From: Halichondria panicea
Taxonomy: Eukaryota; Porifera; Demospongiae; Suberitida; Halichondriidae
Direction of reading: 5' to 3'
Assembly: GCF_963675165.1 (NCBI RefSeq)
Contig: NC_087377.1
Location: forward strand, 13,006,632-13,070,631
Length of the DNA: 64,000 nucleotides
Below, piece by piece: positions 8,496 through 54,766 of the stretch (position 1 is its first letter; each line of letters opens with the position of its first letter). The notes under the pieces are model-generated. The model saw only the letters and a program-made list of their open reading frames with translations. It was not told the origin of the DNA and ran no database searches. The translations under genes and the position numbers were made by a program.

Positions 8496-8529
8496 GTGGT
8501 GACGTTTTATATTGCTGCACCAGTTATTG
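8496..8529 (+). CDS. Gene A: small hydrophobic exon before the Ig exon
   Basis: The 34-base exon lies between a TTTAG acceptor and a GTAAGT donor and reads VVTFYIAAPVI. It joins the next exon in phase 1 over a 63-base intron. It could be the end of a signal peptide or an upstream linker. It is short enough to be spurious. Confidence 0.35.
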
Positions 8530-10402
8530 GTAAGTACAGTAGTTATGGCTGTCCATCCCCATTCATTCAACTATCTTGTTTTTCATGTCTAGGTCAGGTG
8601 GAGTACATTAATTCAGATTTGAATTCTGCCGGCCGTAACTTTTCTTGTTCTAATGAAGTTGTCACATATACTTGCAGAGGGCAAGGAGGCACTCTCTTTG
8701 TAAATTCTCCACCATTGTTTAATCATCCTTTCGGCAGTACCGGTCTTGTTCCAAACGCTCAAGTATTCCCCTCTGCTCCAAATGTTGTTCTTAATCTTAT
8801 AAACAGATTTATGAACTCGTCGGGTACATATTATGATGTTAGTCTTCAAATCGAAGTATTGAGTGATGTGCGGATTAATGTTTCATGTTCTACGGATGTT
8901 CCTGGCCCTCTGAATGATTTTGTATTACCATTGATCCACGAGTGTGAGTTTCTCTAGTAATATGAGTAATTGTTAGCTGGTAATTCCGGGGGACAAAATT
9001 TTCGTGGTTGGAGCTCAGACAATGAATATTTTACCCACGAATGAAGCGACTGCCTACATTTACCTGCAGTGCAAGCAGCAACTACGAAAATATATTCCAC
9101 GAAGTGACTAAAATTAATATTGCTCAACCACGAATGTTTTGTCCCCGAAAATTGCCAGCTGTACGGTATTACATTATACCCGATAGAAGGTATTTTGAGG
9201 TTGCGTATTTACTAATGTACCACGAAATTTATACCCATGAATTATTAATTTTGGTTGTCCACAAAAATCGGCGAAACCCTTTTTAACAGTATTCCGCAAA
9301 AGTTTATACCCTCTTGCTATACGGTATTGCATTCTTAGAGTGCAATATGCATAAGTATACTTGTCCCGAATTAGCCAGCTAGATTTAGTACCCCTGTTTC
9401 TTGTCCCGAAAGGAAAATTCAAATATCCAGAAAGGGTTATGCAGGCATGAAGGCATGAAGCACCGCGCAGTGCCACAAATTTTTTATGGAAGCATAGATA
9501 ATTTAGACGATAGAAGCCTATTTAGCTATATATACGAACAGAAACACATGCATGAGGAGATGGAGCGACTTACTATGCATAATATTGCGGACTCAATATC
9601 GTCTAACCACATTTCCATGTGCTGTACATGTGCGGCTGATAACACAGCTCTTAGCGGTTTGACATAGTTCCATCTCCTCCTCATGTGCTTCTGATACAAA
9701 CGAGTGTGCAAGCGCACGCTTGCTAATGCCTCTCGCCATGTTTTTGCTTTCGCTCAAAAGTATTAGAGTGTACGTTGGCTTTGATTGTTTCACAAGAAAG
9801 GGGTTTCCACAGTTAATAGTGCATACTGATTGTGCTTGTAGCCAAGGCATAGTCAGTATAGTCTGTGAGATAAATGACAGAATTCAATCACAGAGAGTAG
9901 TATCTATAACAAGCAGTCTAAAAAGAGTTTAATCAATAAAAGCACCGCAGGTGCTGATGTCTCGGTGGAGATGCCAAAGCTACATAACATAAAGCTACTA
10001 ATAGCTTTTATACACATGATAAACAATTGCTGCATGCAAAAACTCAGGGAGTGGGTAATGATTGACCGTGATTGTTGTTAAAAACGATCGATGCCAAAAG
10101 TTCAAGTCTAGGCTGCATTAGCAGAGCCTTTGCAGCTCTTTTCTCACTCTTGCAGCTACCAATAGCTAGCGTTCTAGTGCAGAGCTAACTACTAAGTAGA
10201 GTAGCAACACTCGGTAAACAAGTTTGGCTACGTGCTCTTCTGAAAAGGCTGTAATGGCATTCCAAGTAAGCAAAACTAGGCATAACTCGAGAACGAAGCA
10301 TTATTTTGCAAATCCACGAATTAAAATCCAAGTAAACATGACTAGAAGCCTATAGAAACTCTTACTTGCACTTGATTCATCCTTGGAGCAGCTGTAGCAG
10401 TC

Positions 10403-10436
<34 letters not shown>

Positions 10437-13400
10437 ACCGTATACCTCGCTTGCGCATACGCACCGAGGCATAATCACAGAGAGTAGTATCTTATAACAA
10501 GCAGTCTAAAAATAGTTTAATCAGAGAATTCAATCACAGAAAGTAGTATCTATAACAAGCAGTCTAAAAAGAGTTATCAGAAAAGGTTAGTTTGTGGCTT
10601 ACCAGGACCTCAGAAGATTTTGCCAGGATCTGAGGTTCAAAATGGATTCTCTTACACGTGGTATTGAGCGCGCATGCGCATTACATCCAGGAATAAGGGG
10701 TGTGTTTGCAAGTTCAATATAATGGCTACTAAAATAGCTAGCTTCTTTAGCAGCTCTTTCTGACTCTTGTAGCTAACAAAAAGCTAGCGCTTTAGTGCAA
10801 GGCTAACTCATAAGTTGAATAGAAAGTTTGTTCAGCCTTCAATGTGAGTCAAACTAGTCATAACTCGAGAAAAAAGCTTTAGTTTGCTAATCCATGAATC
10901 GCTAGAAGCCTATAGAAGCTGTTAGTTTTCGTCGCATTGCAACCGTTGAGCAGTTACAGCTGGAATCACACACACACACACAGTCAGCTTTACCGTCCGT
11001 ATCCCTCGTGCGGCTACGCCTCGAGGCATAACAAGAACTAGTTGATAGATTTAAGCCACATAATAGCTCACAATTTAGAGAGTGAACAGCAGCAAGATCC
11101 AAGAGAAGGGCACACTATTCTGACCCGTAAAGTGGAGATCCAGTAAAAGGGGGGGGGGGGGGGGCAAGGGGAGAAGTTTCCCCTTTTGCGACCCCCTGGC
11201 TATATACACCAGTGGTTGCATCCTACACGTGTGCGTTATATACAACACCGTGCTGTGGTTTGCAGGCACTTAGACTTAGCCACCTTCCATATAAGGAATC
11301 ACAGTTTCACCGGCAATTACGGAACGTAAGTTCCCTCTTCTTCCCTTATACATGCGGCGCATAATTTGCATGATCAGAGGTTGCGCAGGGGCGTAGCCAG
11401 GATTTTGGGAAGGGGTGTTATTATAGAAAGAGGGCGCGAAGTGTGTTGACCGGAAGCCACACCTCATAGTAATGACGTCATAATAAACTTATGTGCTTAG
11501 TTGGGTGTGGCCTAATCTTCCTTTTGCTAGCTAGCTATAAGTGTTGGACGAGAAGGGTGCTCAACTAGATAAACAGGTACACTTTGTGTACAATCTCAGC
11601 CTATCTGAAATAGAAAGGGGTGCTTGAGCACCATGAGCCCACCCCCTGACTACACCCCTGTTGTGGCTATTTATTTTGCTGGCAAAGGAGGTAACAGTTT
11701 AGGAGAGGCCACTGTTTTAGAAAGCAGTAAATGCAACTTTTGGCAAAATTTTCTTTTCTCGAACTCTGCTACTAGAAAAAATATACTTAGCACTAGCTAG
11801 CTGCTACCATTGCTACCATAAATACCAGTATCAACACGTGGCAGCCTCACATAGGGTCAAAGTTCACTGAGGCTACTATTTGAGAGTGGCTTATGACAGT
11901 AGAGAGGCTTAAGGGGCTTTATATATGAGAGTGCCCTGTGAATAAAGTATTATCAAGGGCGTATAATTAACATCTTAGCTTTCAAATGTCTGTAGTATGT
12001 TTAAAGATAAATGGGCTACATTTTGATACCAAGCAGTCTGCCTTAAGACCCCAAATGTTGTAAGACAGGAAGTGCTACAAGTTGCCTCATGAATATATCA
12101 GTTTTTCTTTGTTTCTGATAAAAATAAAGGTTTTTAGAGCTATCTAAGTTGACAGTTTAACATACGATAAACACTTTAAATTATGAATTTGGGTCAAACT
12201 AGCATGAAGTTGTGTAAAAGGATTTTGCGGAAAGTTTGAATTTTTGAGCAAGCTGTTCACCATCGACATATATAGCAAGCTCAAAATTGGTTGAATAATT
12301 AAAAAGGATCTAAATAACAACATATTCAAGGTAAATGCCATACAAATGAATAGTGTTTGCAAAGCAGTTACACAAACTTTGACATAAATACACAACTTGG
12401 CATAGAACACATCATGAATCATTTCTAGCCTTCTAGTTTGCTGCAAAGCATGCACATGCATCAGATGCACTAGTTGATACTTTAGGCAGTCACTGGTTCC
12501 ATTCACATCTGGAGATATGCAGCCATGAGTTCCACCAATCACAGAGACTATTCAGAATGAGCTAACTTTGAGTTTTTGCGCAAGCTGTTCTCACTAGTCC
12601 AAACTACTTGCTGAGTCAATACATTCCATATTGAACTAATTTATCTCCTAGTAACACGTTCTAGTTCAGTAAATGGTCTGTGTTATGAGCTTTGGAAATC
12701 CAGAAAAAATCACCCTCAACTACAATCTGGTAGAGTTTTTGGGTGTCATCATTATATAAAACAATTTTTTGTGATGTCATACTTGTGAAACCATTAAAAT
12801 ACTTGTGTTATGTATTTCCCGTCTTGTCTTGCAAATACTGAAAACTTGTGGGTGTTAGGGAAGACTAAACATATTCCATTGCTGAGATAACACTGATGAC
12901 ATCAGCAGCTGCTAACCACAAACCATTAATCAACCACATTCGAAAGCTAAAGCTATTAATTTTTCAGAAGTTATTGCTCATTATACACTGTGAACATATA
13001 AGACCCATAAAGGATAGCCAGGAAACCTAAACCATTGAACAATTATCTTATGAAGTCTGAGACCTTAGTTGTTTAAGCTTAGTGTTTTATTACTCCCACT
13101 ATATGTTCTAAATTAATCCCCCTAAACCCACCACCTCATGTTTTCATGAACATTTTTTTGGATATGTTGTAGCTGGAAAAGGGTCACTACAATAGAAAGC
13201 TAGAATTGTGACTGGTTTGTTGTCCCTGGCCCTGTTAGCTAGCTGACTCTGGGATCCATGCAGGAGCAATACTTCTAGGTTTCTTTGCTGTGATCCTAGT
13301 CCACAGTGCATACCGTATATGCTCGATCAGAGGCCGATCTTGTATAAAGGCCACACTCAAATAGTAGCCTCCCTTGCTAGCAAAATGAAACATTTAGTAG

Positions 13401-16400: not shown

Positions 16401-18366
16401 CTCCACACAACAAGTTAATACTTTTGATAGTGGCAGCTTTTAGTGTTAATGCTTCGTTGTCTAATAAAAGCGAGCAAAATTTAGCTTGAACAGAACTTGT
16501 AAACTTCGCACTACCAGACCGCATCTTAAGTGGGTGCGCAGGTGTAGTGGTAAAAATGATATCAGCATACACACACGTGTGGTTTGTACCTCCAGCCCAC
16601 ATTTAATTTTATTCATGGCTAACAGTTTACATAACTACAAGTGTTAGTGACGGATTCAGTCCGAGATATAGAATGGAATGTGCGTGGGAGTGGCATACTC
16701 CTCTTCATACACTCCTGTTAAAACTAATAACTTATTGTGTGAAGACTATTCATGATGTAGACGCAGTGCTGTGGCATCCAGGTGAGCAAGCTCAGATCTG
16801 ACAAACACAACTATACCTGCTGGCCGCGCAAGTCCAAATGACTACTATACCCGTGACGGCTCACGCGCCTCGGATAATGATACTAATTACGTAAAACATG
16901 CAACAAAGTGATTCCCGAAATCCTTCCGTGCAACGGTAGAGGGCAGCGGCGCCTAACTACTCAACCACGATGAGTAATTGTGATCCTTTATATAATTATA
17001 CAGCACGAGTGGAACCACCATCCGATGTGAGGAGTTTTTACACTGTTAAGTGTACTGAGCTTATAGCAAGTCGATCAGTTCGTGTCTGGTGGACCCCACC
17101 TGCGAACTCCCAATTTGACATTGATTATTATCTTGTAAGAGTTTACAGGAACGGAGTGTTGTACACAACTAGAACGTCTACTAACAATAGTCTGAATGTT
17201 GGCATTCCATTTGGAGCAATAACTGCTGATGTTAGAAGTGTTTCCACTTGCGGCACTATCAGTGCTGCAGGAGCATCAACAGACGAATCAGTTAATGAAG
17301 GATGTCCAGGTTTGTTTGAAACAAATCCTCATGAATCTAATTATTTTTGTTCCCTTTTGTAGAGTTTTATTTTGGTTTTTTGGTTCCAACACTAATCGGT
17401 TTTCTCCTCATCGTCACTGTTATCATACTGGTTATCTTTCTTGTGATAGCACAGAAGAGGGTGAGCATTATAATTTATACATATTTTGTGTATGCGTGTA
17501 CTGCCTTGATGTTAAATATCGACAGTTCACGCATGTGTACTTAGCCTTGTTTTTGCTCCTCTTGCAGATATCACACTTGCAAGTAAATGATGAAAAGGTG
17601 TGTATGTATATATATGTATTGATATGCATGTAACAATGTTGGCTGTCCCAAACAAGGCTTTCAATATAATTTTATACGTATATTACGGCCGAATATGACG
17701 TTTTGGGTGTGGTTTAGCAAATAAAAAATTGGTATTGGATTACAAATTGGATTAGAATAGAGAACAGAATGATTCATTATCCTTCATTATCCTCAAGACA
17801 AGAACCGCAAAAGTAATCATTAGATTCGAGGTAAGGTCGTTTTTAAGCCGCGGCTATTTTCTGAGCTACAGCCACCTCGCTATTCCGACCAAGCTGCATG
17901 GTCCCAAGGGTGACCGGATTAACGAGAGTCTACGTATACTGTAATGATAATAACCTTTGCATAATTATATTAAATCAGCTGTGGATTTTCTAAGAGTATG
18001 TAGTAGTAATTAGGCCTTGATAAATTATGCTTTTTTTCCACCCATTACTTTAATTCTTGAAGATATGCTTATTATTCACATAAAAAATCCGATTATTCTC
18101 ATAAAAGTGCAAAAAAATGCGACATTAATTATAGACAAAATATAATTAAGACGTAGGCATAAACACAGCATAATTATGTACACAAAAATGGACATTTGTG
18201 CCTATTATTCCCAATTATTCTTTAGACGCCTATTATGCTAAAATTATTCCGAGCATAATTTATCAGGGCCTAGTAGTAATTTGTAATTTCATATTTGTCT
18301 CACTACTTTTATGTTTGATTTCCCCAGGGCGAAGCTCTTGAAACACATCGACAGTCATCGCAATAA
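8496..18366 (+). CDS. Receptor gene A: Ig - Fn3 - transmembrane protein, 5' end not found
   Basis: Proposed exons are 8496-8529, 8593-8943, 16947-17309, 17363-17460, 17568-17597 and 18328-18366. Together they give 915 bases (304 residues and a stop) with all junctions in phase. An N-glycosylated Ig-like domain is followed by an Fn3-like domain, one strongly hydrophobic segment (about 23 residues) and a short charged tail without tyrosine. That order implies a single-pass cell-surface protein. No initiator or signal peptide was found upstream of 8496, so the N-terminus is incomplete. The intron between Ig and Fn3 is about 8 kb and full of transposons, and further domain exons could hide in it. 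Gene B, C and D have a different, tyrosine-containing tail. Function is inferred only from architecture. Confidence 0.55.
8593..8943 (+). CDS. Gene A: Ig-like domain exon
   Basis: This phase-1 to phase-1 exon of about 117 codons lies between CTAG and GTGAGT. It contains the paired-cysteine pattern VTYTC ... INVSC and N-glycosylation sites such as NFS and NSS. The layout matches the Ig exons of genes B (VSFTC) and D (VTFTC), though sequence identity is low. Confidence 0.65.
8979..9172. mobile_element. Short MITE in gene A intron
   Basis: About 195 bases with inverted ends, containing ATTTTCGTGGTTGGAG-like and ACCACGAA words. A second copy in the same orientation lies at 54219-54418, in the last intron of gene D. 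The same family in introns of two receptor genes may be coincidence in a MITE-rich region. Confidence 0.6.
9942..10473. repeat. Dispersed repeat family R1, copy 2
   Basis: Same unit as 3485-3995, in the same orientation, with a longer CA tract. It lies in the long intron of gene A. Confidence 0.65.
10620..11032. repeat. Dispersed repeat family R2, copy 2
   Basis: Starts near a GTGGCTTACCAGGACCTC motif and ends in CGTGCGGCTACGCCTCGAGG. It shares the full layout with the copy at 51475-52233. It lies in gene A's long intron. Confidence 0.65.
11033..13311. other. Long-intron sequence of gene A without recognised exons
   Basis: A poly-G run lies at about 11150-11165. Bases 11793-11895 are a fragment of the MITE at 13312-13725, inverted. 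A 132-codon minus-strand frame (12144-12542) is the longest non-transposon frame here. It has no splice context, domain or recognisable composition, so I do not call it a gene. Confidence 0.35.
13312..13725. mobile_element. MITE with GTATATGC-type inverted ends
   Basis: The left end ACCGTATATGCTCGATCAG is the inverted counterpart of CTGATCAAGCATATACGGC at the right. The interior repeats the motif CATTTAGTAGC twice in the same orientation. It lies in gene A's long intron. No coding potential was seen. Confidence 0.6.
14018..14090. repeat. Perfect-stem hairpin
   Basis: AGCTCATGCACTGATTCTGC is followed after about 30 bases by its exact complement GCAGAATCAGTGCATGAGCT. This is probably a short fold-back transposon remnant, though a structured RNA cannot be excluded. 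Confidence 0.55.
14100..15360. other. Long-intron sequence of gene A
   Basis: Nothing supportable was found. There are short direct repeats, such as TTTTTGTGTTGTATG twice near 14150-14175 and GTTATAGTGATGTTAGTG near 14975-15000. Confidence 0.3.
15362..15660. repeat. Dispersed repeat family R2, reverse partial copy
   Basis: Begins TTATACCTCGAGGCGTAGCC and reads as the reverse complement of the other R2 copies. The far end is truncated. Confidence 0.6.
16124..16881. mobile_element. Inverted-repeat element next to gene A's Fn3 exon
   Basis: The left end (TTACCCGAGGTGCGCGTG) and right end (complement TTATCCGAGGCGCGTGAG) are diverged inverted repeats, and each continues into ACGGGTATAGTAGT. The interior carries two near-identical segments around CTGCGTTTACAGCATGG. 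Fragments of the same family lie near 31010-31260, 40690-40880 and 50340-50570. No transposase was seen. Confidence 0.6.
16947..17309 (+). CDS. Gene A: Fn3-like domain exon
   Basis: The exon reads through VEPPSDV ... VRVWWTPPAN ... DYYLVRVYRNG ... VSTCG, an Fn3-type pattern with the conserved tryptophan and tyrosine. The acceptor at GGGCAG before 16947 keeps phase 1, while another at 16939 would be phase 0. The exact start is uncertain because bases 16912-16957 match, inverted, the end of the MITE at 20191-20515. The donor is GTTTGT at 17310. Confidence 0.6.
17363..17460 (+). CDS. Gene A: transmembrane exon
   Basis: After a TTTTGTAG acceptor the exon encodes a continuous hydrophobic segment including LIGFLLIVTVIILVIFLVI. 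It closes with the stop-transfer residues AQKR, and the donor GTGAGC follows in phase 0. This predicts type I orientation with the Ig and Fn3 domains outside. Confidence 0.7.
17568..17597 (+). CDS. Gene A: cytoplasmic mini-exon
   Basis: The 30-base, phase-0 exon reads ISHLQVNDEK between CTTGCAG and GTGTGT. It is supported by phase and splice sites only. Confidence 0.5.
17640..17940. mobile_element. Truncated family-T element in gene A intron
   Basis: Matches internal and right-end sequence of 6219-7500 and 19658-20057 (for example GTTTTTAAGCCGCGGCTATT), but the left terminus is missing. It lies between two cytoplasmic exons of gene A. Confidence 0.65.
18011..18272. mobile_element. hAT-like MITE in gene A intron
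   Basis: The ends TAGGCCTTGATAAATTATGC and GCATAATTTATCAGGGCCTA are inverted repeats with one mismatch. A perfect 8-base duplication GTAGTAAT lies on each side (18003-18010 and 18273-18280). Eight-base duplications are characteristic of hAT elements. A one-ended fragment lies at 61155-61197. Confidence 0.75.
18328..18366 (+). CDS. Gene A: last coding exon
   Basis: After a TTTCCCCAG acceptor the exon reads GEALETHRQSSQ and a TAA stop, then a GTAAAT donor at 18368. A 3' untranslated exon would start near 18447. Confidence 0.5.
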   Translation, partial: GEALETHRQSSQ

Positions 18367-23689: not shown

Positions 23690-24440
23690 CACATTGAACG
23701 CAGAATACAGACTGAGCAATCTGACAGAATACGGCATACTGTCTGGGGCATTTACCATGAACACATAACAGACTGGGCTGTCTGGGGCATACAGTCAGGC
23801 GTGAACACAGAATATTGAACACAGAATATGGCATTGACCCAATACAGACTGGGCTGTCATACAGAACAGACTGGGCTGTCTGGGCAGAATACGGCCAATA
23901 GGGCATTGACCGTGAACACAGACTGGGCTGTCTGGGGCATAGCACAGAATACGGCATTGACCCAATAGGGCATTGACCGTGAACACAGAACAGACTGGGC
24001 TGTCTGGGGCATAGCACAGAATACGGCATTGACCCAATAGGGCCATTGACCTTGAACACAGAACAGACTGGGCTGTCTGGGGCATAGCACAGAATACGGC
24101 ATTGACCCAATAGGGCATTGACCGTGAACACAGAACAGACTGGGCTGTCTGGGGCATAGCACAGAATACGGCATTGACCCAATACAGGCATTGACCATTA
24201 ACACAGAACAGACTGGGCTGTCTGGGGCATTGACCGTGAACACTGAATACGGCATTGACCCAATACGGGCATTGACCGTTAACACAAAACAGACTGGGCT
24301 GTCTGGGGCATTGACCGTGAACACAGAATACGGTCAAAATACGGCATTGACCCAATACAGACTGGGCCGTTAACACAGAACTGTCGGGGGCATTGACCGT
24401 GAGCATTGACCGTCTGGGGCATGGTGCAGAATACAGACGG
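23690..24440. repeat. Minisatellite, unit about 73 bases
   Basis: About ten imperfect units carry GACTGGGCTGTCTGGGGCAT followed by AATACGGCATTGACCCAAT. The most regular spacing (71-74 bases) is between 23919 and 24210. Several overlapping minus-strand frames of up to 203 codons arise only because the unit lacks stops in some phases. I do not regard these as genes. Confidence 0.8.
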
Positions 24441-25176: not shown

Positions 25177-26485
25177 TTTTTTTTTTTTTTTTTTTTTATA
25201 ATAATTCTGCAAAATGCATGGATACACTAGTAGCATATTACGCTAACCTAATGTGCGCCCTGTATATATTACTTACAATAGCGAGTACAAATTAAAAATA
25301 AAGACTAATATTATACTAATGCAAGTGACAGAGTACATTTCTCTTAAATGACAAAATCGATGTACTTTCCTGCAGCTCCAGTGGTAATTCATTCCACACA
25401 GATATTGCCTTTGGGAAAAAAGAGTTCACATATGCATTTGTTCTGCAAATTGGTCTTTCAAACTGTATATTTTTTGTGCTTCTTAGATTGAGAGGGCATA
25501 CTCTTCTTTCCAGTGGTGGATCAGAGAATTTAAAGTTACCATTTATTACCTGGTAAAGGTATGATAGCTTCAGGTACAATCTTCTTGTAGAAAGGGACGG
25601 TAGGTCCACAGTATCTAATAGGGAGTCGTAGTCCATATTCCAAAGTTTTGTGCAGATTTTAAGGGCAAACTTTTGTACTTTTTCTATTTTGTGAGAATTT
25701 GTTTTTTGGTATGGATCCCAAACAGGGGCAGCATATTCCAGTTTTGATCTCACAAGGGAGATGTAGAGTTGTCTTAAACATTCTAGTGACGAGTGGCCAT
25801 AGAACTGTCGGTAAATTATACCAACCTGCTTGCAGGCATTTCTGCACATTTCTTCTATGTGTTTTGACCATGAGAGGTCGTGAGAGATCCACACGCCAAG
25901 GTACTTGTAGTGGTCAACTTTAAGTAGGGGACGTCCACTGATATTGAGACACATGTTGGGAAGTGGTGGGCTGAATTTTCTTGATATAGTCATGTATTTA
26001 CACTTGCTTTGGTTAAACAAGAGTACATTTCTTTCAGACCATGCTTGGAGTTGATCAATATCTCCTTGCAATTTTATATAATCTTCAGGAGATTGAATAG
26101 GATGGTAAAGAAGAAGATCATCAGCATAGAGCAAAAGACTTCCTTCATTTTGATGTAGATCGATGTCATTTATATAGATTAGGAAAAGAAGAGGTCCCAG
26201 CACCGAACCCTGGGGAACTCCTGACACAACCTCCGAGATATTTGATGACTTTCCATTTATTATGACATATTGTGATCTATTCCTGAGGTAGCTTGCTACC
26301 CAAGATACCAGGTGGGGATCTAGGTTCAGATTGGTTAGCTTACTCATCAATATCGAGTGAGGAACCTTGTCAAATGCTTTTTTGAAATCAAAAAAGACTG
26401 CACATACACTCTGACCATCTTCAAGCAGTTTGTGCCAATTGTGCACTGCCGTAAGCAGCGCACCTGTGGTGGATTTTTCTTTACC
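25177..26485 (-). mobile_element. 5'-truncated non-LTR retrotransposon (LINE)
   Basis: On the minus strand the element ends in a run of about 20 A (T run at 25178-25198). It begins abruptly inside the reverse transcriptase, near 26485, so it is a typical 5'-truncated LINE insertion. The endonuclease domain is absent. No obvious target duplication was found. The open reading frame suggests a fairly recent insertion. Confidence 0.8.
25316..26446 (-). CDS. LINE reverse transcriptase fragment
   Basis: An uninterrupted frame of 376 codons carries the reverse transcriptase blocks in order: FFDFKKAFDKVPH, GVPQGSVLGPLLFLIYINDI, then LLLYADDLLLY with the catalytic YADD. A thumb and C-terminal region follows, ending ...FKRNVLCHLH. 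The same frame continues upstream to about 26480 without a proper start (STTGALLTAVHNWHKLL), so the listed start is only a convenience. The enzyme would copy its own RNA at a nicked target. Block order suggests the jockey/CR1/Rex1 side of LINEs. With the N-terminal half missing, it is unlikely to be autonomous. Confidence 0.85.
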   Translation of the reverse strand: MHNWHKLLEDGQSVCAVFFDFKKAFDKVPHSILMSKLTNLNLDPHLVSWVASYLRNRSQYVIINGKSSNISEVVSGVPQGSVLGPLLFLIYINDIDLHQNEGSLLLYADDLLLYHPIQSPEDYIKLQGDIDQLQAWSERNVLLFNQSKCKYMTISRKFSPPLPNMCLNISGRPLLKVDHYKYLGVWISHDLSWSKHIEEMCRNACKQVGIIYRQFYGHSSLECLRQLYISLVRSKLEYAAPVWDPYQKTNSHKIEKVQKFALKICTKLWNMDYDSLLDTVDLPSLSTRRLYLKLSYLYQVINGNFKFSDPPLERRVCPLNLRSTKNIQFERPICRTNAYVNSFFPKAISVWNELPLELQESTSILSFKRNVLCHLH

Positions 26486-26767
26486 TAGGTTTCATCTTCT
26501 TGGAGTTGCAACTGTTGGATGGTTTGCCTTTGCCTTTGACACTGCTAGTACAAGCCATACTGCTGCTGAGAACTAGTTTTACTATGCTGCAATCGAGCTA
26601 GCTAGCTGGCACAGATATAAAAAATACTTTGATTTACCTTGTGCGGTCAAAGGTTACGCGTGGGCGTTTTTGTGGGCAGTTCTAAAAATAGCTCAATACG
26701 AAGTCGGATGATTCTGAGAATGGGGCGAGTTGCATGCCCTCTTCTCTGTATACGCCCTTGGTTTTAC

Positions 26768-38866: not shown

Positions 38867-38945
38867 ATGAATGCAAGGTCATCAGATCTACAGATTGCTG
38901 TCACTCTAGCGTTGCTTATTTTAAGTTGGTCATGCCGAGGGGAAG
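38867..38945 (+). CDS. Gene B: signal-peptide exon
   Basis: The ATG at 38867 opens MNARSSDLQIAVTLALLILS and continues to a phase-1 GTAGGT donor. It has a hydrophobic core of about 13 residues before SWSCRGE. An ATG four bases later is in another frame and gives no signal peptide. Confidence 0.75.
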
Positions 38946-41900
38946 GTAGGTAGATGTAAATAATAAATTATTATTAAACAATGTTACACAAAGCAGCTTA
39001 TTTGACAATAACCCCCACTGTGGCTTGTCCTGATGACACTGTATCCTTCACCTGCACTCTGCCTGGTAGCTTTATACGATGGGTAATCCTTCCACTGCAA
39101 GGGGCCCTGTTCAGCATATCTTTATTTTCTAACAATGATGATGTCACAGACGGTATTCCAGCATTCCGTGGTGTTCGCAATGACACGAGTGAAGATAATG
39201 TCACTGCCACTCTCATTTCACTGTCCAAGGCCTCCATTGTGGAGGGTTTTATGGTGGAGTGTATTGGGGCTAGCTCACGAGAAGGTCCTCTTCCCATTAC
39301 TGTTGCTGGTGAGTGGTTGATGAATGAGAATTACAAAGTTTGGGCGTTGCCTGGTTTCCGTGAAACGAATAATACAGTGCATGCAGTGTATGATGTGCCA
39401 GGGTTTTGTACAGGGGGGAAGGGGAGATATCCCCCCCTAGATCCAATTTCTCCCCCCCCCCCCCCCCTAAAATGTGCATTCATGTACTAGTTGTATGACT
39501 GAGTGTCCATAGCTGGCAATTTTACATACTAACAGGGTAGCAAAATTTTCTGGTTACTTTTGTTACTTCCCGGCCCCCTCTACTTCAAAATCCTGTATGA
39601 CGACACCCTGTATAATGCACACACACACACACAGATCCACCCTCCCCTCCCTTGAGTCCAAGAGTCTCCTTCACTCTAAACCAACCCAGCTACTCTAATA
39701 CTACCCTGGAGTGGGGCCCTCCCTCCTCTACTGGCAGTGTGTCTGTCAACTATGTCGTTACTATCTCCCCAACACCTTTCTCTGGGTCACCAGTCACCGT
39801 GGAGGCCATCTCGGCACAGATAACTGTCTCCTACAACACTCTCTACAATGTGACTATCAGAGCTGACAACTGTGCAGGAATGAGCCAAGAGAGTTTAATT
39901 ATGGATCTAAGTCAGTCATGATTTATATAGCTAATACTATATAATTCCTCCTCCTTAATGCAGTTGTGTGCCCCACACCGTCTACTGCTGCTGATGTGAC
40001 TATCACCAACACACCTCCTGTCACTATTGGTGGATCTATGCTCACCTTCACTTGCAGAGACAGTGAAGTGATAACCTCAACCTGTGGCAGTAGTGGGTGG
40101 TCTCCTGACCCTGGGACCTTCGACTGCAGCAGTCCAGTTACAGGTATCATGCATGGGCAATTAACTCTCTAAAAGGAATGTTGATCTCACGCATTAGATC
40201 CCCAAGTCAGCTGTGGTTCTCCTGCTATACCATCTAGAGGTAGTTTGGACATCAATGGTGGGACACCACCCTTCTCACTGGGTTCAGAGATAACTTATCG
40301 CTGTGACGATGGACTGTTCCCTCCTGATGTGAGGACCAGCACATGCACTGATGTGGAGGGTAGGGGAGAGTGGGTGGAGAATCCTAGGAGCTTGGTGTGC
40401 AGAGTGAGTCCAGGTAATACAGTATACAGTGACAGAACAAGGTCAACCATTAAATTGTCAATCCTTTTTTCAGTCAACTGCTCTCTTCCTGCTGAGCCAT
40501 CCAACGGAACTATAGTGAACTATGAGAGGTTGAATGAGACAGTGTCTGAGGGAACAGTGCTGACTTACCAGTGTGACAATGGATTCTCATTGACTAAACC
40601 CAACACCATCACTTGCACTAATGCTGGAGTCTGGAGTATTGAGCCTGAGGCAATCATGTGTGTGCCACCAACTGAAGGTGAGAGTAATGAACCCGAGGCC
40701 CGAGGCACATAGCAACCACGGGGGTTATGGTAATCCCTTGATTTGTTTGTCTGTGTATTTAAAGTCTGCTCACCTGGCTGCCATAATTATATACTATAGC
40801 GCCTTCTTTTACAGCACGAATAGCCTCAACACAACATATTATAATTAGTGGGAGCAGATTTAATTTTGTGGCAAGCGAGCAAAAAAGTTATAGTTTATAA
40901 GACGGTATACAATATGTAGCTAAACATGATATATATGCCTTTAATTTGAGGCACGCTATTACACATGCGATTGTGCCCTTGTGCACTATACATGCAGCCA
41001 TGTGCATGCATGGAGCCTTATTTCATGGGAAGACTTCTTAACTTGCTGGCTTCATTATTATACTGTGAGCCTATACTCCGGTCCCACGCATATATAATGT
41101 GTTAGGTGTGTCCTATACATGTATACTTGTAACACTCCAGGCCTCGATCTTTGCTAGCTCTGCTGTAATTAATCCTAATGGTCCGGGACTCTCAGTGCAT
41201 GTCAGATGCCACTAAGGTTTATTTCAGTGTGGCTTAGCATGTTATAATTATTTCACCTGCTTAAAATGTTCTGTCACCTGCTTGGAGCATGTTCTCACAG
41301 CTCAACAACTGTAAGGCAATGTCGTTCCCTATCAAAGACACCATCTGCTGGCTAAGGGATTTTTGACAACAAGTAGGAACTAATGAAACAGAAGTTCATC
41401 TATATATCACCCCCTCCTCAACTATAACCTCAATCCCAGGCAGCACTTCCTTTCTTCAATGGAAGGCTTGTGGCTACCTGGCCCTCAACTTAGCGCATGT
41501 AACAACAATTAATTAATGACTGTACATTATTAGTCACAATACTATACTACATTGTATAGATCTACTATGAGCAGTAAGGCAATTACATACATGTATGTAC
41601 ATGTAGCACACAGGCTGGCTTACAAAGCAATCTTCTTGACGACAACCAGGTAGATGAAGAGTATGACAACTATATAGCTGGTACATTATATACCGGTATA
41701 ATACAACATCGCATGCTCCAGGGTTTGCAGCAACATTGCAGGAAGTTACCACAAGTCAACCATTTTGTCTGGAAAACGTTAAAGTAACATTTTTCTGGGG
41801 GGACGCAAGCAAGCGTCCTATATGCTAGCTACGTGTCAACCACATGTCACCTACATGCTTGGGAAAATCTGAAATAAATCCTGATTTGGACTTCTTTGCC

Positions 41901-42644
41901 GACTTTACTGAGATCCTATAGTGAATTATATAGTCCCATGCATGAAGTGCATGTCTGACCATGTACACCACCATCTATCTACGTGCACGTGTCAAGTGGC
42001 ACCACGACCGTTTCAAAACCTTTGTCATAAGGCCATGCAAAGTAGTTTCTCAGGCCCTCGCGCTTGGAAATTGGCAGCTTTACAATATCACGTGACCTCA
42101 AATTAAAGAAAAAGAAAAGGATAAATTGATATGGTTTTTTGGTCATGAACTAAAATTAATTAGTAAAAATTATGCACTTCCGCTTATTGAGAAAGTTAGG
42201 GGTGTGTTTTCAATTAAAATTCTATGAATATCATTATCATTAAATGCCTCAATCCGCTTGCTATTTTAGCCTGAGAAACTACAAATTGACTTTGCATGGC
42301 CTAAGTGTATTATACTAGTAGGGTATATACGAATCTGATTGTGCTCTATATAATGTTATGCCAATAATTACTGCCAATCCTTCACAGCTGCCACCCTATC
42401 AACTGGTGCAACTCTTGCCATCGGTGTTACTACTACTTTCGTTGCATCTACTATCCTTGGATTTCTAGCTGGACTCCTAGTGATGTATTCGTTCACGCGT
42501 AAGAAGGCAGTGTACTACACAAGAAAAACAGCATTATCTGTTGTACAACCCACTAAACCAGTTGGTCCTGTTTATGAAGAGGTGTCACCCAAAGAGGAGA
42601 TTGAACTGAACACTAACCAGGCGTATGGACCAGTAGGACTGTGA
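38867..42644 (+). CDS. Receptor gene B: signal - Ig - Fn3 - 3 CCP - TM - tyrosine tail
   Basis: Seven exons (38867-38945, 38997-39308, 39635-39910, 39964-40143, 40198-40413, 40474-40677 and 42388-42644) are joined by phase-1 introns only. They give 1524 bases, 507 residues. The order is a cleavable signal peptide (about residues 1-25), an Ig-like domain, an Fn3 domain and three CCP/sushi domains, each with four cysteines and the conserved tryptophan. One transmembrane segment and a tail of about 50 residues follow. The tail has YEEV and YGPV motifs 17 residues apart (tyrosine to tyrosine) and ends in VGL. In other animals such domains bind ligands outside the cell, and phosphorylated YxxV motifs can bind SH2 domains. 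That role is inference here. All donors are GT and no break was seen, so this is the intact reference for C and D. Confidence 0.85.
38997..39308 (+). CDS. Gene B: Ig-like domain exon
   Basis: Cysteines in VSFTC and MVEC bracket an IRWV tryptophan, as in Ig folds. An extra cysteine precedes them (TVACPDD). The acceptor is AAGCAG; AAAG three bases earlier would add one alanine. The donor is GTGAGT. Confidence 0.8.
39635..39910 (+). CDS. Gene B: fibronectin III domain exon
   Basis: The exon starts after an ACACACAG acceptor and contains TLEWGPPSSTGSVSVNYVV, the B and C strand pattern of Fn3. It then has LYNVTIRADNCAG near the end. The preceding intron carries long poly-C and CA tracts. Confidence 0.8.
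39964..40143 (+). CDS. Gene B: CCP/sushi domain 1
   Basis: A 60-residue module with four cysteines (VCPTP, FTC, STC, FDC) and the SGWSPDP tryptophan between the last two. Phase 1 at both ends. Confidence 0.8.
40198..40413 (+). CDS. Gene B: CCP/sushi domain 2
   Basis: Four cysteines (VSC, YRC, STC, LVC), with GEWVENP before the last. The DDGLFP motif is shared with the CCP domains of C and D. The donor at 40414 is used; GTGAGT at 40404 would break phase. Confidence 0.8.
40474..40677 (+). CDS. Gene B: CCP/sushi domain 3
   Basis: Cysteines in VNC, YQC, ITC and IMC, with GVWSIEP. The FSLTKPN segment corresponds to FSLVGA in C and D. The acceptor is TTTTTTCAG and the donor GTGAGA. Confidence 0.8.
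40678..42387 (+). other. Last intron of gene B
   Basis: A 1.7-kb intron. Bases 40690-40880 are a fragment of the element family at 16124-16881. The remainder shows no exon. Confidence 0.5.
42388..42644 (+). CDS. Gene B: transmembrane and tyrosine-tail exon
   Basis: After a TTCACAG acceptor a hydrophobic stretch (TTTFVASTILGFLAGLLVMY) is stopped by TRKK. The tail follows, with AVYY, then PVGPVYEEVSPKEEIEL and NTNQAYGPVGL. Its final 80 or so bases are almost identical to those of C and D. Confidence 0.8.
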
Positions 42645-46188: not shown

Positions 46189-47649
46189 ATGATCACTGGA
46201 CTTCTTATGATTTGCTTTCTAGCTGGCTTCAGCACTGGTAAGACTGACTATTCACTTATAGAATTCTTTACATTGCTGCATGTTTCGTAGAGCCCAATAT
46301 TCAGTGTGAGTGTGGAGAGACCATGTCCAATGGAAACAGTCACTTTCACCTGCACTGCTCCTGTTTTAATTATTTATTACACAGCCTCTCCGGATCCAAT
46401 GAACTGCACAGCTTCACTACTTCCATCATGGAATGGCACCATCAGTGGTCATTCAGTACCAGCTATTCCCGGTACACAAGTGACCTTCCAGTGTGACGAC
46501 GGACTGTTCCCTGAGGGCACAATGAATGTCATCTGTTTAGCTACAGGAGAGTGGGACAAAAATCCTTGGGAGATCGTCTGCCGACTTGAACCTAGTAAGT
46601 TATTTATTTAAGTAATGGGCATTCACTATCCCCTGTACCCAGTTTTGTGTGTCCCGCCTGCCCCTCCACTCAATGGAGCATTACTCAACACCTCTCAGAA
46701 TACTAATGCAATTAACCGAGGGCTCAGTTCCAGTGTGCTCCTGGGTTCTCACTGGTGGGTGCAGCGACTGCCACTTGTAACAACTCTGGTCTCTGGGATC
46801 CTGACCCGGCTCTATTGGAATGTTGTACGTACGCATGAGTAGTATAATAAACCAGCTGATACAACTATACAATTATATAAGCCAAGGTTTGAATTACTAA
46901 ATGAGCGATCTATTTTCCAGTTTCCTGTGTCCTGCCTGTCCCTCCACTCAATGGAGTGTTACTCAACACCAGCTCTCAGAACATTAACCTAATGGAGGGC
47001 TCAGTCATTACCTTCCAATGTGATTCTGGGTTCTCACTGGTGGGTGCAGCGACTGCCACTTGTATAGCAACTCTGGTCTCTGAGATCCTGACCCTGCTCT
47101 ATTGGAGTGTTGTACGTATATACACATGAGTAGTAATAGACTATAGCTGGTATACAATGATATATATATATTATAGCCAAGATTCGAATTACTATAATAC
47201 TTTAAATAAGCTCAATAATCTATTTTTACTATATTCGTTGTATACCCAGTTTCCTGTGTCCTGCCTATAATTATAGTAGTAAACTATAGCTGATATACAA
47301 GAACTTTTTATTAGTTTACTCTGCATGCCTTCAATTTATCTATTGGATTTCACTATATTATTGTGTAATTTAGCCTTCTCCCATGCACAGTTCAATCACC
47401 CACTCTATTTACCGGAGAGATTCTTTCTATCAGTGTGGTTGTCACTGCAGTTGCTTTCTTAGTCATTGGATTCCTCGCTGGACTCCTAGGATGCACCTTT
47501 GCTCTCGTAAGAAGGCAGTGTACTTCCCAGCAACTAAAGGACAAGCTAACGTAGGACCCACTCCAGTTGGTCCTGTTTATGAAGAGGTGTCACCCAAAGA
47601 GGAGATTGAACTGAACACTAACCAGGCGTATGGACCATTAGGACTGTGA
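46189..47649 (+). pseudogene. Receptor copy C: deleted and frameshifted
   Basis: The copy is close to D throughout. The signal exon (46189-46237, MITGLLMICFLAGFST) is intact. The next exon (about 46305-46594) starts as an Ig domain. After TFTCTAP it jumps into intron sequence and a CCP domain (MNCTASLLPSWNG), so most of Ig, all of Fn3 and one CCP are deleted. A two-base difference upstream also breaks the splice phase. Two copies of the third CCP exon follow (46643-46824 and 46921-47111), each with its own frameshift. The last exon (about 47389-47649) keeps a good transmembrane segment in the ancestral phase. One base is lost after it, so the tyrosine tail falls out of frame. This is probably a dead copy. 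Confidence 0.7.
46643..47111 (+). pseudogene. Copy C: tandemly duplicated, broken CCP exons
   Basis: Both segments begin after a CAG acceptor with CVPPAPPLNG or CVLPVPPLNG and share LLNTS and GSHWWVQ- or FSLVGA-coding sequence. The first lost about ten bases in the middle. The second gained two bases after the third cysteine codon and has TGG changed to TGA. The duplicated exon is unique to C. Confidence 0.65.
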
Positions 47650-50864: not shown

Positions 50865-51010
50865 CCTTCACTTTTCTCCCACGGCTCTCTGGCTTGTGAT
50901 AGTGAGAGTCCATACATCCTCCCCTCCTCATTTTGGGTCACTGAACCACACGAGTACATCTGTTTGTCTGTCACGATGGGTCGGGTCGTCATAGATACAA
51001 TGCACCACCC
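50865..51010 (-). pseudogene. HEAT-associated exon relic, best copy
   Basis: On the minus strand an open exon reads IVSMTTRPIVTDKQMYSCGS, VTQNEEGRMYGLSLSQA and REPWEKSEG up to a GTGAGG donor at 50864. A damaged copy lies at 44880-45050. The residues look like a real, conserved exon of a larger gene. The relation to the HEAT-like exons at 55.7-57.1 kb is inferred from the shared neighbourhood at 44.6-45.1 kb. Confidence 0.4.
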
Positions 51011-51474: not shown

Positions 51475-52136
51475 TACCAGGACCTCAACAAAAAGAAAAT
51501 TGATTCTGCCAGGATCTGGGGTTCAAAATGGATTCTCTTACACGTGGTTTGAGCGCGCATGCGCATTACATCCAGGAATAAGGGGTGTGTCTGCAAGTCC
51601 ATTCACAAAAATTACTAATGGCTACTAAAATAGCTAGCTTCTTTAGCAGGTCTTTCTGACGCTTGTAGCTAACAAAAAGCTAGCGCTTTAGTGCAAGGCT
51701 AACTCCTGCTTTTGAGACTTACCAAAGTATTATCACCTTCAATAGTGTCACATATTCTAACAACGCTCCTCGAGCACCATACAATGTGTTGTGGTCTACT
51801 GTGATATTTTATGGAGGAGAAAGCGTCTTCAAAAAGAACTCCCAAACTGCTTGTTTCTTGAGTTTCAGTAATATATTATGACAATTACGGGAAAATCAAC
51901 ATTTTACTTCATAAGTTGAATAGAAAGTTTGTGCGAACAGATGATCGATGCTATGAAAGATTCTGAAAAGACTGCAACAGCCTTCAATGTGAGTCAAACT
52001 AGCCATAAATCGAGAAAGAAGCTTTAGTTTGCTAATCCACGAATCAAATCCAAGAAAACTTGGCTAGAAGCCTATAGAAGCTGTTAGTTTTCGTCGCATT
52101 GCAACCGTTGAGCAGTTACAGCTGGAATACACATGC

Positions 52137-52185
<49 letters not shown>

Positions 52186-52233
52186 CACAGTCAGCTTTAC
52201 CGTATCCCTCGTACGGCTACGCGTCGAGGCATA
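51475..52233. repeat. Dispersed repeat family R2, with a 190-base insertion
   Basis: The full family layout is interrupted at about 51718-51908 by unrelated sequence. A GACA tract (52136-52185) replaces the usual CA tract. Confidence 0.65.
52136..52185. repeat. (GACA)n microsatellite
   Basis: About twelve near-perfect CAGA/GACA units inside the R2 repeat. Confidence 0.75.
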
Positions 52234-52239
52234 ATTAGA

Positions 52240-52707
52240 TGCATATAGTGTGGTGTGGGTAGGGGGGAGGGTTCAATCTTTTGATTTTATTCAATGTCAC
52301 GGTATGAAATTGGGCCAAGGTATGTAAGTACTCTTACCACTATCAGCCGCATTAGAAAGAGTTTTCCCCCTTTTAGCTAAATCGAATTATTTTTCTGATT
52401 GACAAGAACGTTCTCTTTAAGAGACATAATAATTCAAGATGCGTATTTCGATCTGAGGACAATTACACAGCATAATTAGAATAATAATGAATGAGCATTC
52501 ATAAAAAATAGAATAGCCCCTAAAAGAAAGGCCACCAGATGCGGTGTTCAGATGCGGTGTTGTATCAACAAAATTATAATTATACGAAAACAGGAAGTGT
52601 AATTAATATATGCCTGCAGGGAAGGGATGTAAACAGACTAAACAAAGAAGTTGTCTAGTCAGCAATCACATTGAAATGTAACCTTCTAAACTGTCAATAA
52701 ATAAGAG
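52240..52707. other. Upstream region of receptor D
   Basis: No promoter motif could be recognised with confidence. The 60 bases before the ATG resemble those before copy C. Confidence 0.3.
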
Positions 52708-52774
52708 ATGACACTAATAGAGATAAAGCTCATTAGAGTTCTCCTGATTTGCTTTCTGGCTGGCTTCAGCACTG
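52708..52774 (+). CDS. Gene D: signal-peptide exon
   Basis: Starts MTLIEIKLIRVLLICFLAGF and ends at a phase-1 GTAAGA donor. The final part is nearly identical to copy C's first exon. Confidence 0.7.
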
Positions 52775-54766
52775 GTAAGACTGACTAGGTTTCCTTATAC
52801 ATTGCTGCATGCTTTGTAAAGCCCAATATTCAGCGAGTGTGGAGAAACCATGTCCAATGGAAACAGTCACCTTCACCTGCACTGCTCCTGGAGATTCCTT
52901 GAGATGGGTGTCTTCAGATGGTACTCGCATCGCTATCTTTTCCACCTTAGAGCTCAATGCACCAGTAATGCAGTCAGGTTACACTGTGACACTGATTGCA
53001 GCCAACGACACCACATTAACGTCAACTCTGTCCAGAACAGCAGAGAATGGGATCACTGTGTCCTGTGTGGACCAGCCTGCGCCTTCAACAACCATAGGAT
53101 CTTCAATGATCCAATTGGTTGGTGAGTTGCAATAAGTGCCTCGCCAGTTATCTCACAATTAATAAGTTAAATAGATCTACCAGGATCACCTTCTACCATA
53201 AGACACTCCATTGCAAGCAGCTTAGCCCATGAAGTTAGTGTATCTGTGCAGTGGAACCCTCCTACTGAGACTGGTGGTAGAGATGACCTCACCTACACAG
53301 TGACCATCTCACCTCCAGCCCAGCTCTTTGCTACTGTCCTCACATCAATCTCTGTCACTGTGACTGTTCAATACAATGTGGACTACACTGTCAGTGTTGT
53401 GGCTACCAACTGTGCTGGGAACAGTACAACAGCTGAGTACAACTTTAGGATTGGCGAGTTTTATTTTATTTTATTGGACACAGTGTCAACTCCTTTTCAA
53501 GTGGCTGTCTTGCGTTGACCAACCCTGTGAATGGAGCGTTTGGACCTGTCTCCAGCAGATTGCCTGGATCCACAGTAACCATCCAGTGTGATGCTGGATA
53601 TGTGTCTGCTGTTACAATGGTGACATGTGAAGATACACTGATGTGGAGTCTAGACCCTGAGGCTATTGAGTGTACATCACTACCCACACTCCCTCCCACA
53701 ACTCGTGAGTTGAGTTCTTCATTGTACAAAACTTAATACTTAAAATTATTTGTTTCACCTCACAGCTCTTCCAATGAACTGCACAGCAGCACTATCCCTA
53801 CCACAAAATGGCACCATCATTAGTGATCCTTCAGTACCAGCTATTCCCGGTACACAAGTGACCTTTAAGTGTGACAATGGACTGTTCCCTGAGGGCATAA
53901 TGACTGCCACCTGTCTAGCTACAGGAGAGTGGAACAAGATCCTGGGGAAGATTGTCTGCAGAAATGAGTCTAGTAAGTTTATACCTGGTTTATGGTTCAG
54001 TGTACTCAATTTATTGAGATTAAAATTCGAACTACTAAAACCATTACCTTCCAATGTGATCCTGGGTTCTCACTGGTGGGTGCAGTGACTGCCACTTGCA
54101 GCAACTCTGGTCTCTGGGATCCTGACCCGGCTCTGTTGGATTGTGTATCTAGAAGTTGTACGTATATATACTATAATTATATAAGCTGATACAAGATCAT
54201 AGTACCATTATTATATATAGAGGGTAATTTTCTTGGGGCAAAATATTCGTGATTTTCGTGGTTGATGGTCTGACCACGAATATTTACCCACGAAAGAAGG
54301 GACCTTGCCTACCTTTACCTGTAGTGCAAACTCCAACCACGAAAATATTACCCACGAAATGTCTCAAGATTGCTGAACTACGAACATTTTGTCTCCTGAA
54401 AATTACCGCTATACGGTAGTCTTATATAATGTACTTCTGTGATGCATGCCCTCCCGTTGTCTGATATTTTTCGCTCTAAAAATTTAGCCTTCTCCCATGC
54501 ACAGTTCAATCACCCATCCTATTTACTGGAGAGATCTTTCTATCAGTGTGGTTGTCACGGCAGTTGCTTTCACAGTCATTGGATTCCTCACTGGACTCCT
54601 AGTGATGCACCTTTGCTCTCGTAAGAAGGTAGTTTACTTCCCAGCAGCTGAAGGACAAACTAACTTAAGACCCACTGTACTAGCTGGCCCTGTTTATGAG
54701 GAGGTGTCACCCAAAGAGGAGATTGAACTGAACACTAACCAGGCGTATGGACCAGTAGGACTGTAA
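52708..54766 (+). CDS. Receptor gene D: Ig - Fn3 - CCP - CCP - (damaged CCP) - TM - tyrosine tail, probably decaying
   Basis: Exons are 52708-52774 (signal), 52834-53121 (Ig), 53175-53457 (Fn3), 53502-53704 (CCP1), 53766-53972 (CCP2), about 54001-54157 (damaged CCP3) and 54505-54766 (transmembrane and tail). The domain order is that of gene B. Three problems are visible. The Fn3 donor reads GCGAGT where the family has GTGAGT; a phase-2 alternative donor is at 53458. The first 25 or so codons of CCP3 and its acceptor are deleted, and no acceptor restores phase. One base is missing before the transmembrane segment relative to C. A donor at 54162 instead of 54158 would compensate for the last. 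The tail itself is perfect (YEEV, YGPV). D is either a recent pseudogene or makes a shortened product. Confidence 0.55.
52834..53121 (+). CDS. Gene D: Ig-like domain exon
   Basis: Contains VTFTC, LRWV and ITVSC, as in gene B. Two phase-compatible acceptors exist (exon start at 52822 or 52834). ATTCAG at 52833 is the better one. The donor is GTGAGT. Confidence 0.7.
53175..53457 (+). CDS. Gene D: fibronectin III domain exon
   Basis: Carries VSVQWNPPTETGGRDDLTYT and VDYTVSVVATNCAG, close to gene B's Fn3. The expected phase-1 donor at 53454 is GC instead of GT. Ending at 53457 with GTTTTA would keep phase with the next exon. Confidence 0.6.
53502..53704 (+). CDS. Gene D: CCP/sushi domain 1
   Basis: Begins CLALTNPVNGAFGPV, typical of sushi modules. 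Cysteines follow in IQC, VTC and IEC, and a tryptophan in MWSLDPE. It is followed by a proline/threonine linker (TLPPTT). Confidence 0.65.
53766..53972 (+). CDS. Gene D: CCP/sushi domain 2
   Basis: Cysteines in MNC, FKC, ATC and IVC, with GEWNK. It corresponds to the fused CCP of copy C. Phase-1 donor GTAAGT. Confidence 0.7.
54219..54418. mobile_element. Short MITE in gene D intron
   Basis: Second copy of the element at 8979-9172, with inverted ends around GGTAATTTTC and GAAAATTACC. It lies between the damaged CCP exon and the transmembrane exon. Confidence 0.6.
54505..54766 (+). CDS. Gene D: transmembrane and tyrosine-tail exon
   Basis: The hydrophobic segment VVVTAVAFTVIGFLTGLLVM is followed by CSRKK. 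The conserved tail with YEEV and YGPV comes next, ending in TAA. To stay in this frame the exon must be entered in phase 2, whereas B and C use phase 1. Confidence 0.65.

Follow-up and report, generated by a model that had tools for sequence, protein, structure and literature searches.

A large gene cluster in the sponge Halichondria panicea encodes candidate recognition receptors with variable heads and a shared tyrosine tail

Gene B and the receptor cluster on contig C1

The stretch analyzed here (the window) comprises 64,000 nucleotides of the demosponge Halichondria panicea (contig NC_087377.1, designated C1; C1:13,006,632-13,070,631), in an assembly of 131.5 Mb and 39 contigs. This assembly holds about 17 chromosomes: the eight of C1-C17 that were seen span 5.7 to 18.1 Mb, and 18 of C18-C39 are 143 kb or shorter. 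The window contains genes for predicted membrane receptors in which an Ig-like head, Fn3 and CCP (Sushi) domains, and a transmembrane (TM) segment are followed by a short tail with conserved tyrosines. The tail, of the form YEEV...NxxY, occurs three times in the window, in genes B, C, and D, and gene B is the intact copy.

Gene B is composed of seven exons with six junctions, all of phase 1. When the exons were joined in frame, they encoded 507 amino acids, exactly the product that a preliminary description of this DNA had assembled from phase-1 exons. The product consists, in order, of a signal peptide, the Ig-like head, Fn3, three CCP domains, the TM segment, and the tyrosine tail. The exons of gene B are as follows.

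38867..38945, plus strand: exon 1, signal peptide MNARSSDLQIAVTLALLILSWSCRGE; ATG, hydrophobic core, GT donor, phase 1
38997..39308, plus strand: exon 2, variable Ig-like head; AG/GT signals, phase 1; framework C10, C19, W28, C88; Ig profile matches under the cut-off
39635..39910, plus strand: exon 3, Fn3; Pfam fn3 8.3e-4, under the cut-off; phase 1
39964..40143, plus strand: exon 4, CCP1, short and without a Pfam match of its own; recognized from its frame, splice signals, and aligned copies in other genes
40198..40413, plus strand: exon 5, CCP2; Pfam Sushi (two stretches in gene B)
40474..40677, plus strand: exon 6, CCP3; best Pfam Sushi stretch, residues 357-412
42388..42644, plus strand: exon 7, TM segment and tail ending PVYEEVSPKEEIELNTNQAYGPVGL, then stop; tail found at at least 186 loci on C1

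In Pfam searches of the gene B product, Sushi scored above the cut-off (3.1e-13) and fn3 below it (8.3e-4, 20 of 25 bits). Its CCP stretch matched complement factor H (1.3e-19) and CR2 (3.4e-16) in the PDB. The whole protein gave no match to a described gene in the two databases searched, Pfam and the PDB.

The tail of gene B recurs on C1 at 186 loci or more between 11.249 and 14.927 Mb (3.7 Mb), 148 of them on the plus and 38 on the minus strand. These loci are hits merged within 260 bases and pooled from two tail searches plus 17 places found with a tail word; their median spacing is 6.1 kb, and they lie mostly in long same-strand runs. With tail query 1, 149 of the best 150 of 267 candidates were located on C1 and one on C7; with tail query 2, the best 150 of 277 candidates were all on C1. 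A stop codon was present in only 2/150 scored hits of the first query and 2/150 of the second. Moreover, a 29-base tail word was found 202 times in the genome with up to three mismatches (153 forward, 49 reverse), and the reversed control word 0 times; the recurrence of the tail thus exceeds chance. Heads were similarly concentrated. Among the best 150 genome matches of the gene B head, 148 were on C1 and two on C6. The gene D head matched C1 in 130 of 131 cases and the small contig C32 once, and a head of class Ib (see below) matched C1 in 121 of 123 cases and C6 in two. A few head matches on C1 lie beyond the core, reaching down to 9.87 Mb.

Two copies on C1 (L049 and L050; C1:11.705-11.708 and 12.423-12.425 Mb), 717 kb from each other, are virtually identical in the 2.4 kb for which they were compared. 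Equal-scoring places were also observed at regular offsets on C1, among them near 11.79-11.81, 12.04, and 13.22-13.24 Mb. These repeats represent either recent segmental duplication or assembly duplicates. Outside C1, the sole tail among the matches listed lies at C7:3596900-3601816 (L088, L036), where, judged by eye, a subfamily II-like body is joined to a subfamily I-like tail; this copy is perhaps a hybrid that departed from the cluster. Distant Ig-Fn3 relatives of the gene B head, with 30-36% identity, were also seen off the cluster at C6:2305300-2306800 (L087) and C6:2349659, and they could possibly be an outgroup or a founder.

A further 36 gene loci were fetched, the first 12 because both Ig and tail hits were present there and the remaining 24 by visual choice from the list of tails. 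Ig, Fn3, and tail frames were open and in order in 30 of the 36 (12/12 and 18/24); a recognized Ig or Fn3 frame was missing in six of the 24 picked by eye. In 30 of 34 genes, a phase-1 exon for a signal peptide precedes the Ig exon. Two subfamilies were distinguished, I (B-like) and II (D-like), and subfamily I holds the Ig classes Ia, Ib, Ic, and Id. Each sampled locus carried one Ig domain and, after Fn3, up to three CCP domains, in a stable order. The preliminary description had held that phase-1 symmetry lets the domains be shuffled freely. In the sampled genes, however, the order is stable, and exchange takes place mainly between head and body, within subfamily I.

Constant tails, variable heads, and exchange between copies

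For analysis of the tail, 64 distinct sequences were gathered by requiring its motif (3 of 67 rows were spurious and were dropped), so that copies lacking the motif fall outside the tally. YEEV or YEEI was present in 63 tails and YEEM in one, and NxxY in 64/64. At least two YxxI/L/V motifs were found in 62 of the 64, a membrane-proximal tyrosine in 58, and a repeated second motif in five. The tails were also tallied against the patterns of the immunoreceptor tyrosine-based inhibitory motif (ITIM) and the immunoreceptor tyrosine-based activation motif (ITAM). A strict ITIM occurred in 1/64 tails, at the TM end, and an ITAM in 0/64, which rules out the tail as an ITIM or ITAM. YEEI and YEEV are suited to Src-family SH2 domains, and NxxY to PTB domains. 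A cytoplasmic kinase domain is absent, as gene B stops right after the tail and the fetched TM-tail exon frames end likewise.

When the ratio of nonsynonymous to synonymous differences per site (pN/pS) was calculated over 36 genes, it was 0.138 for the last 25 tail residues, 0.65 for the TM segment, and 1.03 for the juxtamembrane part (from pairs of equal length only). In the sampled genes, purifying selection acts strongly on the final 25 residues of the tail.

One tail stood in another setting. At C1:11479000-11482500 (minus strand; L089), the same TM-tail, here with three NQAYGP-type motifs (PPKEEMELNTNQAYGPLG repeats), was observed, and the frames near it appeared by eye Fn3-like and unlike the ectodomain of gene B. 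Because this tail lies beside an ectodomain that is not B-like, it may be an independent module.

The domains of the receptors differ in their divergence. Across 16 subfamily-I genes (119 pairs), median amino acid identity was 0.41 for Ig, 0.73 for Fn3, 0.79 for CCP3, and 0.69 for the TM-tail exon; for CCP1 it was 0.84 (54 pairs) and for CCP2 0.79 (65 pairs). Median synonymous divergence (dS) in the same 16 genes was 0.99 for Ig, 0.39 for Fn3, 0.24 for CCP3, and 0.41 for the TM-tail exon. Each statistic covers the genes in which the module was found, and the pair L049/L050 was excluded from the 16-gene pairs. As dS is unlike between modules, exons within one gene differ widely in synonymous age. 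These values agree with the earlier view of a fast-diverging, recognition-type family with a conserved tail (at least 186 loci on C1, tail pN/pS 0.138, Ig identity 0.41).

Within the head, variation peaks at gene B positions 24-25, 29-51, and 89-94, and the near-invariant positions are C10, V15, T18, C19, W28, L72, V86, and C88. The framework of C10, C19, W28, and C88 is common to the gene B head and 15 others. Relative to C19, W28, and C88, the three variable stretches appear to be placed like the binding loops of a V domain.

Exchange between copies was examined by comparing distances, trees, and individual gene pairs. In Mantel tests, Ig distances correlated with Fn3 distances (rho 0.64 with 15 genes, 0.57 with 13), weakly with CCP3 distances (0.30, p 0.02; 0.19, p 0.13), and not with tail distances (0.13, p 0.11; 0.00, p 0.45); linkage therefore decays inside a gene of 2-4 kb. 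Trees were built from 28 of the 31 Ig-bearing genes, with gene D and L075 (no TM-tail model) and the duplicate L050 excluded. The Ig tree supported classes Ia (nine genes) and Ib (seven genes) as clades. Each class required five changes on the tail tree, where the approximately unbiased (AU) test rejected the monophyly of both (p 3e-41 and 5e-8, respectively). Subfamily II was a single clade on both trees. Moreover, L057 and L066 have TM-tails that are 100% identical under heads that are 35% identical; the corresponding values are 95% and 35% for L049/L067, and 92% and 38% for L045/L048. The reverse case was seen in L042/L070, with heads 77% and tails 59% identical. When L049 and L067 were compared at the DNA level, identity was 57% in the Ig exon and 94-97% from CCP1 through the tail, introns included. 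The clashing Ig and tail trees, together with identical tails under unlike heads, show that heads and bodies have been exchanged between copies, by recombination or gene conversion. Head movement and body homogenization are both exchange between copies.

Genes C, D, and A and other sequences

Genes C and D were likewise analyzed exon by exon. Their features are as follows.

46200..47646, plus strand: gene C, broken; end of a signal exon (to 46237), Ig-to-CCP fusion (46291-46608), CCP remnants, TM-tail exon, 1-base gap
52708..52774, plus strand: gene D signal peptide MTLIEIKLIRVLLICFLAGFST
52822..53121, plus strand: gene D Ig-like head, subfamily II; AG and GTGAGT signals; 130 of 131 relatives on C1
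53175..53453, plus strand: gene D Fn3; Pfam fn3 3e-5, under the cut-off; followed by GC, not GT
53500..54160, plus strand: gene D CCP frames, two (~53500-53704, ~53766-53972) and half of a third (~54030-54160); ends approximate
54488..54766, plus strand: gene D TM-tail exon; tail codons intact; 1-base gap relative to gene C near the exon start

In gene C, the Ig exon reads on into CCP sequence and the TM exon carries a 1-base gap. In gene D, the second half alone of the third CCP was seen, and Pfam Sushi matched at 2e-5 over 53744-54085. The 1-base TM-exon gaps of the two genes are different gaps, as judged by aligning C with D and by comparison with the L038 translation by eye, and the last tail codons are intact in both. 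Genes C and D look like dying copies, and the mixture of intact and dying copies noted at the outset is thereby retained, with B intact and C and D broken.

Gene A, which had been counted as a fourth copy beside B, C, and D, comprises the following features.

8593..8943, plus strand: gene A Ig-like exon; 14% identity to the gene B head
17004..17309, plus strand: gene A Fn3 exon; Pfam fn3 0.0041, under the cut-off
17363..17461, plus strand: gene A TM exon; without the YEEV/NQAYGP tail

The gene A Fn3 exon gave 11 matches in the genome, all on C1 between 11.69 and 13.35 Mb. Membership of gene A in the B-D family is ruled out by the 14% Ig identity, the missing tail, and this separate family of 11 Fn3 matches; A belongs to another, small Ig-Fn3-TM family, whereas B, C, and D share the tail. 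No CCP-like frame was noticed in gene A on inspection of its frames, no systematic search having been made. As its relatives are scattered in the same stretch of C1 and lack the tail, the gene A family is interspersed with the B-D family, yet not part of it. Three of the Fn3 matches lie inside 1.3 kb at 12.476 Mb of C1.

Several other sequences were recorded. In the window, a 391-residue open frame at 25319-26491 on the minus strand resembles a reverse transcriptase of the long interspersed nuclear element (LINE) type, and a tandem array at 23895-24333 has a 72-base unit, 5.7 copies, and 92% matches. The window gave no Rfam match, and no tRNA gene was found in it by ARAGORN. Contig C24 (20,381 bases; L115) carries dense, intron-free minus-strand frames and resembles a marine phage contig. 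On C15, C6, and C9 (L091-L094), a Peptidase_C1 search found cathepsin L-like genes with single open frames of 206-360 residues, and in one of them (L094) the active-site Cys is replaced by Ser and the His position by Arg, as judged by eye. A nuclear COX1 fragment of 64 residues, with TGA read as Trp twice, was found at C1:5280527-5280718 (L118); a whole COX1 was not found elsewhere in the assembly. In the PDB, the fragment matched 7jro, from a plant (91.5 bits), better than 1qle, from an alphaproteobacterium (81.5), and bovine 1occ (76.9). This relic suggests slow mitochondrial evolution of the kind seen in non-bilaterians. The fetched parts of contigs C20, C24, and C37 held no tRNA gene and nothing recognizably mitochondrial.

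Proposed function, rival explanations, and known systems

We propose that the complex probably encodes germline-diversified recognition receptors that share one tyrosine tail. Each intact gene would yield a type I membrane protein with a signal peptide, an Ig-like head, an Fn3/CCP stalk, a TM helix, and a short tail. The head would bind a variable ligand, upon which the receptors may cluster and a Src-family kinase may phosphorylate the tyrosines of YEEV and NQAYGPV/L. The phosphorylated motifs could then recruit SH2 or PTB adaptors and give rise to one common signal. Many heads on one shared tail would mean a single output wired to many specificities. Diversity would be generated by germline copies and by the exchange of heads, and the set of heads in an animal would determine what triggers the shared output.

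A number of observations weigh against this proposal. The Ig fold of the head is unproven. In the PDB, the best E value for the head was 0.033, and antibody chains, which are abundant in that database, made up 57 of the 60 matches listed; in Pfam, Ig_2 matched 6 of the 16 heads when E values up to 1 were allowed, with a best value of 0.018; and structure prediction (AF2) gave a predicted local distance difference test (pLDDT) score of 46 for the gene B head and 39 when two other heads of the window were included. Also, genes C and D, two of the window's three family members, are broken, and some copies in the array may be assembly duplicates. The tails show no activating/inhibitory split such as that of natural killer (NK)-type receptor sets, in a tally that covers motif-fitting tails alone. 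The proposal is, moreover, founded on genome sequence.

The evidence for positive selection on the heads is local and mixed. Six B-like heads that lie in similar sequence contexts (B, L039, L040, L079, L080, and L081) were compared, and variable sites numbered 34/312 in the Ig exon, 18/302 in intron 1, and 6/276 in Fn3. The Ig exon was more variable than intron plus Fn3 (p 0.0002) and than the intron alone (p 0.03), and nonsynonymous Ig changes exceeded intron plus synonymous changes (p 0.002). On the opposing side, the 5′ flank was variable at 19/189 sites, nearly equal to the Ig exon; the ratio of nonsynonymous to synonymous divergence (dN/dS) in the six heads was 1.64 and not significant (p 0.17); the Fn3 ratio, 1.68 from six changes, was like that of Ig; and dN was lower than dS in most other close Ig pairs. 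Positive selection is thus suggestive only.

The most likely selected job of the receptors is non-self recognition. Among particular functions, allorecognition would be the leading candidate at somewhat less than an even chance, followed by recognition of microbes or symbionts as a substantial contender, an adhesion code as an improbable one, and other functions as less probable again. Allorecognition is ranked over microbial recognition because the nearest known architectures sit at allorecognition loci, an argument by resemblance. The most specific form of the proposal, that the complex is the histocompatibility complex of the sponge and that the head-swapped array sets the repertoire of the individual and decides fusion or rejection, is offered tentatively and may well prove wrong.

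A considerable possibility is that the receptors recognize microbes or symbionts rather than conspecifics. In this case, an arms race would diversify the heads, and uptake or defense would be triggered through the uniform tail. Large clustered families with a single output have the look of pattern-recognition expansions, SRCR expansions have been reported in sponges (PMC10855680), and one tail for all heads requires no activating-inhibitory balance; however, nothing in the data indicates a microbial ligand, and expansion with head exchange is equally compatible with allorecognition. It is unlikely that the heads form a homophilic adhesion code, in which they would give cells or clones an adhesive identity and the tail would report contact. 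Ectodomains built from Ig and Fn3 are typical of adhesion proteins, and genes that each carry one head above a uniform tail would suit such a code, but the sampled loci carry a single Ig domain per gene, and the head changes faster than its neighbors, which is atypical of conserved developmental adhesion. The array might instead have been inflated, both because the assembly set haplotypes side by side and through the neutral gain and loss of copies, leaving few working genes. The near-identity of L049 and L050, the equal scores at regular offsets on C1, and the broken state of genes C and D are what such inflation would leave. We consider it very improbable, given the tail pN/pS of 0.138, the stops in just 2/150 scored hits per tail query, the Ig, Fn3, and tail frames open in 30/36 fetched loci, and the strong divergence of most sampled copies, which haplotype duplication does not explain.

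The proposed recognition receptors may be compared with several known systems. In vertebrates, KIR, LILR, NITR, and similar families consist of Ig receptors with tyrosine tails that are arranged in tandem, change rapidly, and recombine; inhibitory and activating members are mixed in them, and a CCP stalk is not known. The sponge set, in contrast, has a CCP stalk and one tail for all tallied copies.

Closer in architecture are the fester co-receptors (FcoR) of Botryllus schlosseri, which are described as 53 linked loci at the fuhc locus, thought to act in allorecognition, and as type I proteins with a signal peptide, a variable-type Ig domain, sushi, a TM segment, and YxxI/L/V tail motifs (PMC12065747). 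Like FcoR as described there, the sponge genes have a signal exon (30/34 genes), an Ig-like head (V-type unproven), Sushi (in gene B), a single TM segment, and a tail with core YxxI/L/V motifs (at least two in 62/64 motif-collected tails). Unlike them, they have Fn3 and CCP between head and TM, where FcoR has two C2-type Ig domains after sushi. FcoR tails are ITIM or hemITAM, and FcoR is paired with fester genes, whereas the sponge tails are not of these types and are of one kind among those tallied. The sponge array also comprises at least 186 loci, compared with 53, with heads exchanged among bodies; the two are likened by architecture, not homology. A second comparison is with the Alr allorecognition complex of Hydractinia, reported to contain at least 41 linked Ig-superfamily loci (PMC11067881). 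Both are linked multigene complexes of divergent Ig-type membrane proteins, although the sponge Ig assignment is one of weak profile matches, and no Alr chain was among the 60 PDB matches listed for the head. Alr tails are reported to carry ITIM- or ITAM-type motifs (PMC12065747), compared with 1/64 strict ITIM and 0/64 ITAM in the sponge tails, and the sponge receptors differ further in their Fn3 and CCP stalk and in their severalfold greater number of loci. The resemblance to FcoR and Alr may be convergence.

Among sponge molecules, the receptor tyrosine kinase of Geodia (PMC12018476, PMC11999971) shares an Ig-type ectodomain, but the tail described here is without a kinase and reaches its stop 25 residues after the start of YEEV. 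A recognition role has also been proposed for the sponge aggregation factors (PMC12018476, PMC11999971), but these are extracellular proteoglycans. No description of such a receptor cluster in sponges was found in the titles and abstract beginnings of the open-licence papers that literature searches listed.

Sponges are reported to discriminate self from non-self with remarkable specificity (PMC5450542), and in the main text of that grafting transcriptome study the words receptor and immunoglobulin are absent. A 2025 review calls the mechanisms of invertebrate allorecognition a "complete mystery" and describes the sponge, cnidarian, and ascidian candidates as not conserved (PMC12065747). The cluster on C1 is a strong candidate for self/non-self discrimination in this sponge. 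Because the interval is mapped, its genes can be counted, and variable heads stand on a constant tail, the relation of graft outcome to haplotype becomes a question of genetics. If the histocompatibility reading were true, the cluster would represent a recognition system that swaps its heads and that arose independently in an animal lineage among the earliest; even if the ligands were microbial, an array of this size, with heads recombined onto shared signaling bodies in a non-bilaterian, would stand as a strong example, outside vertebrates, of a germline repertoire diversified by exchange.

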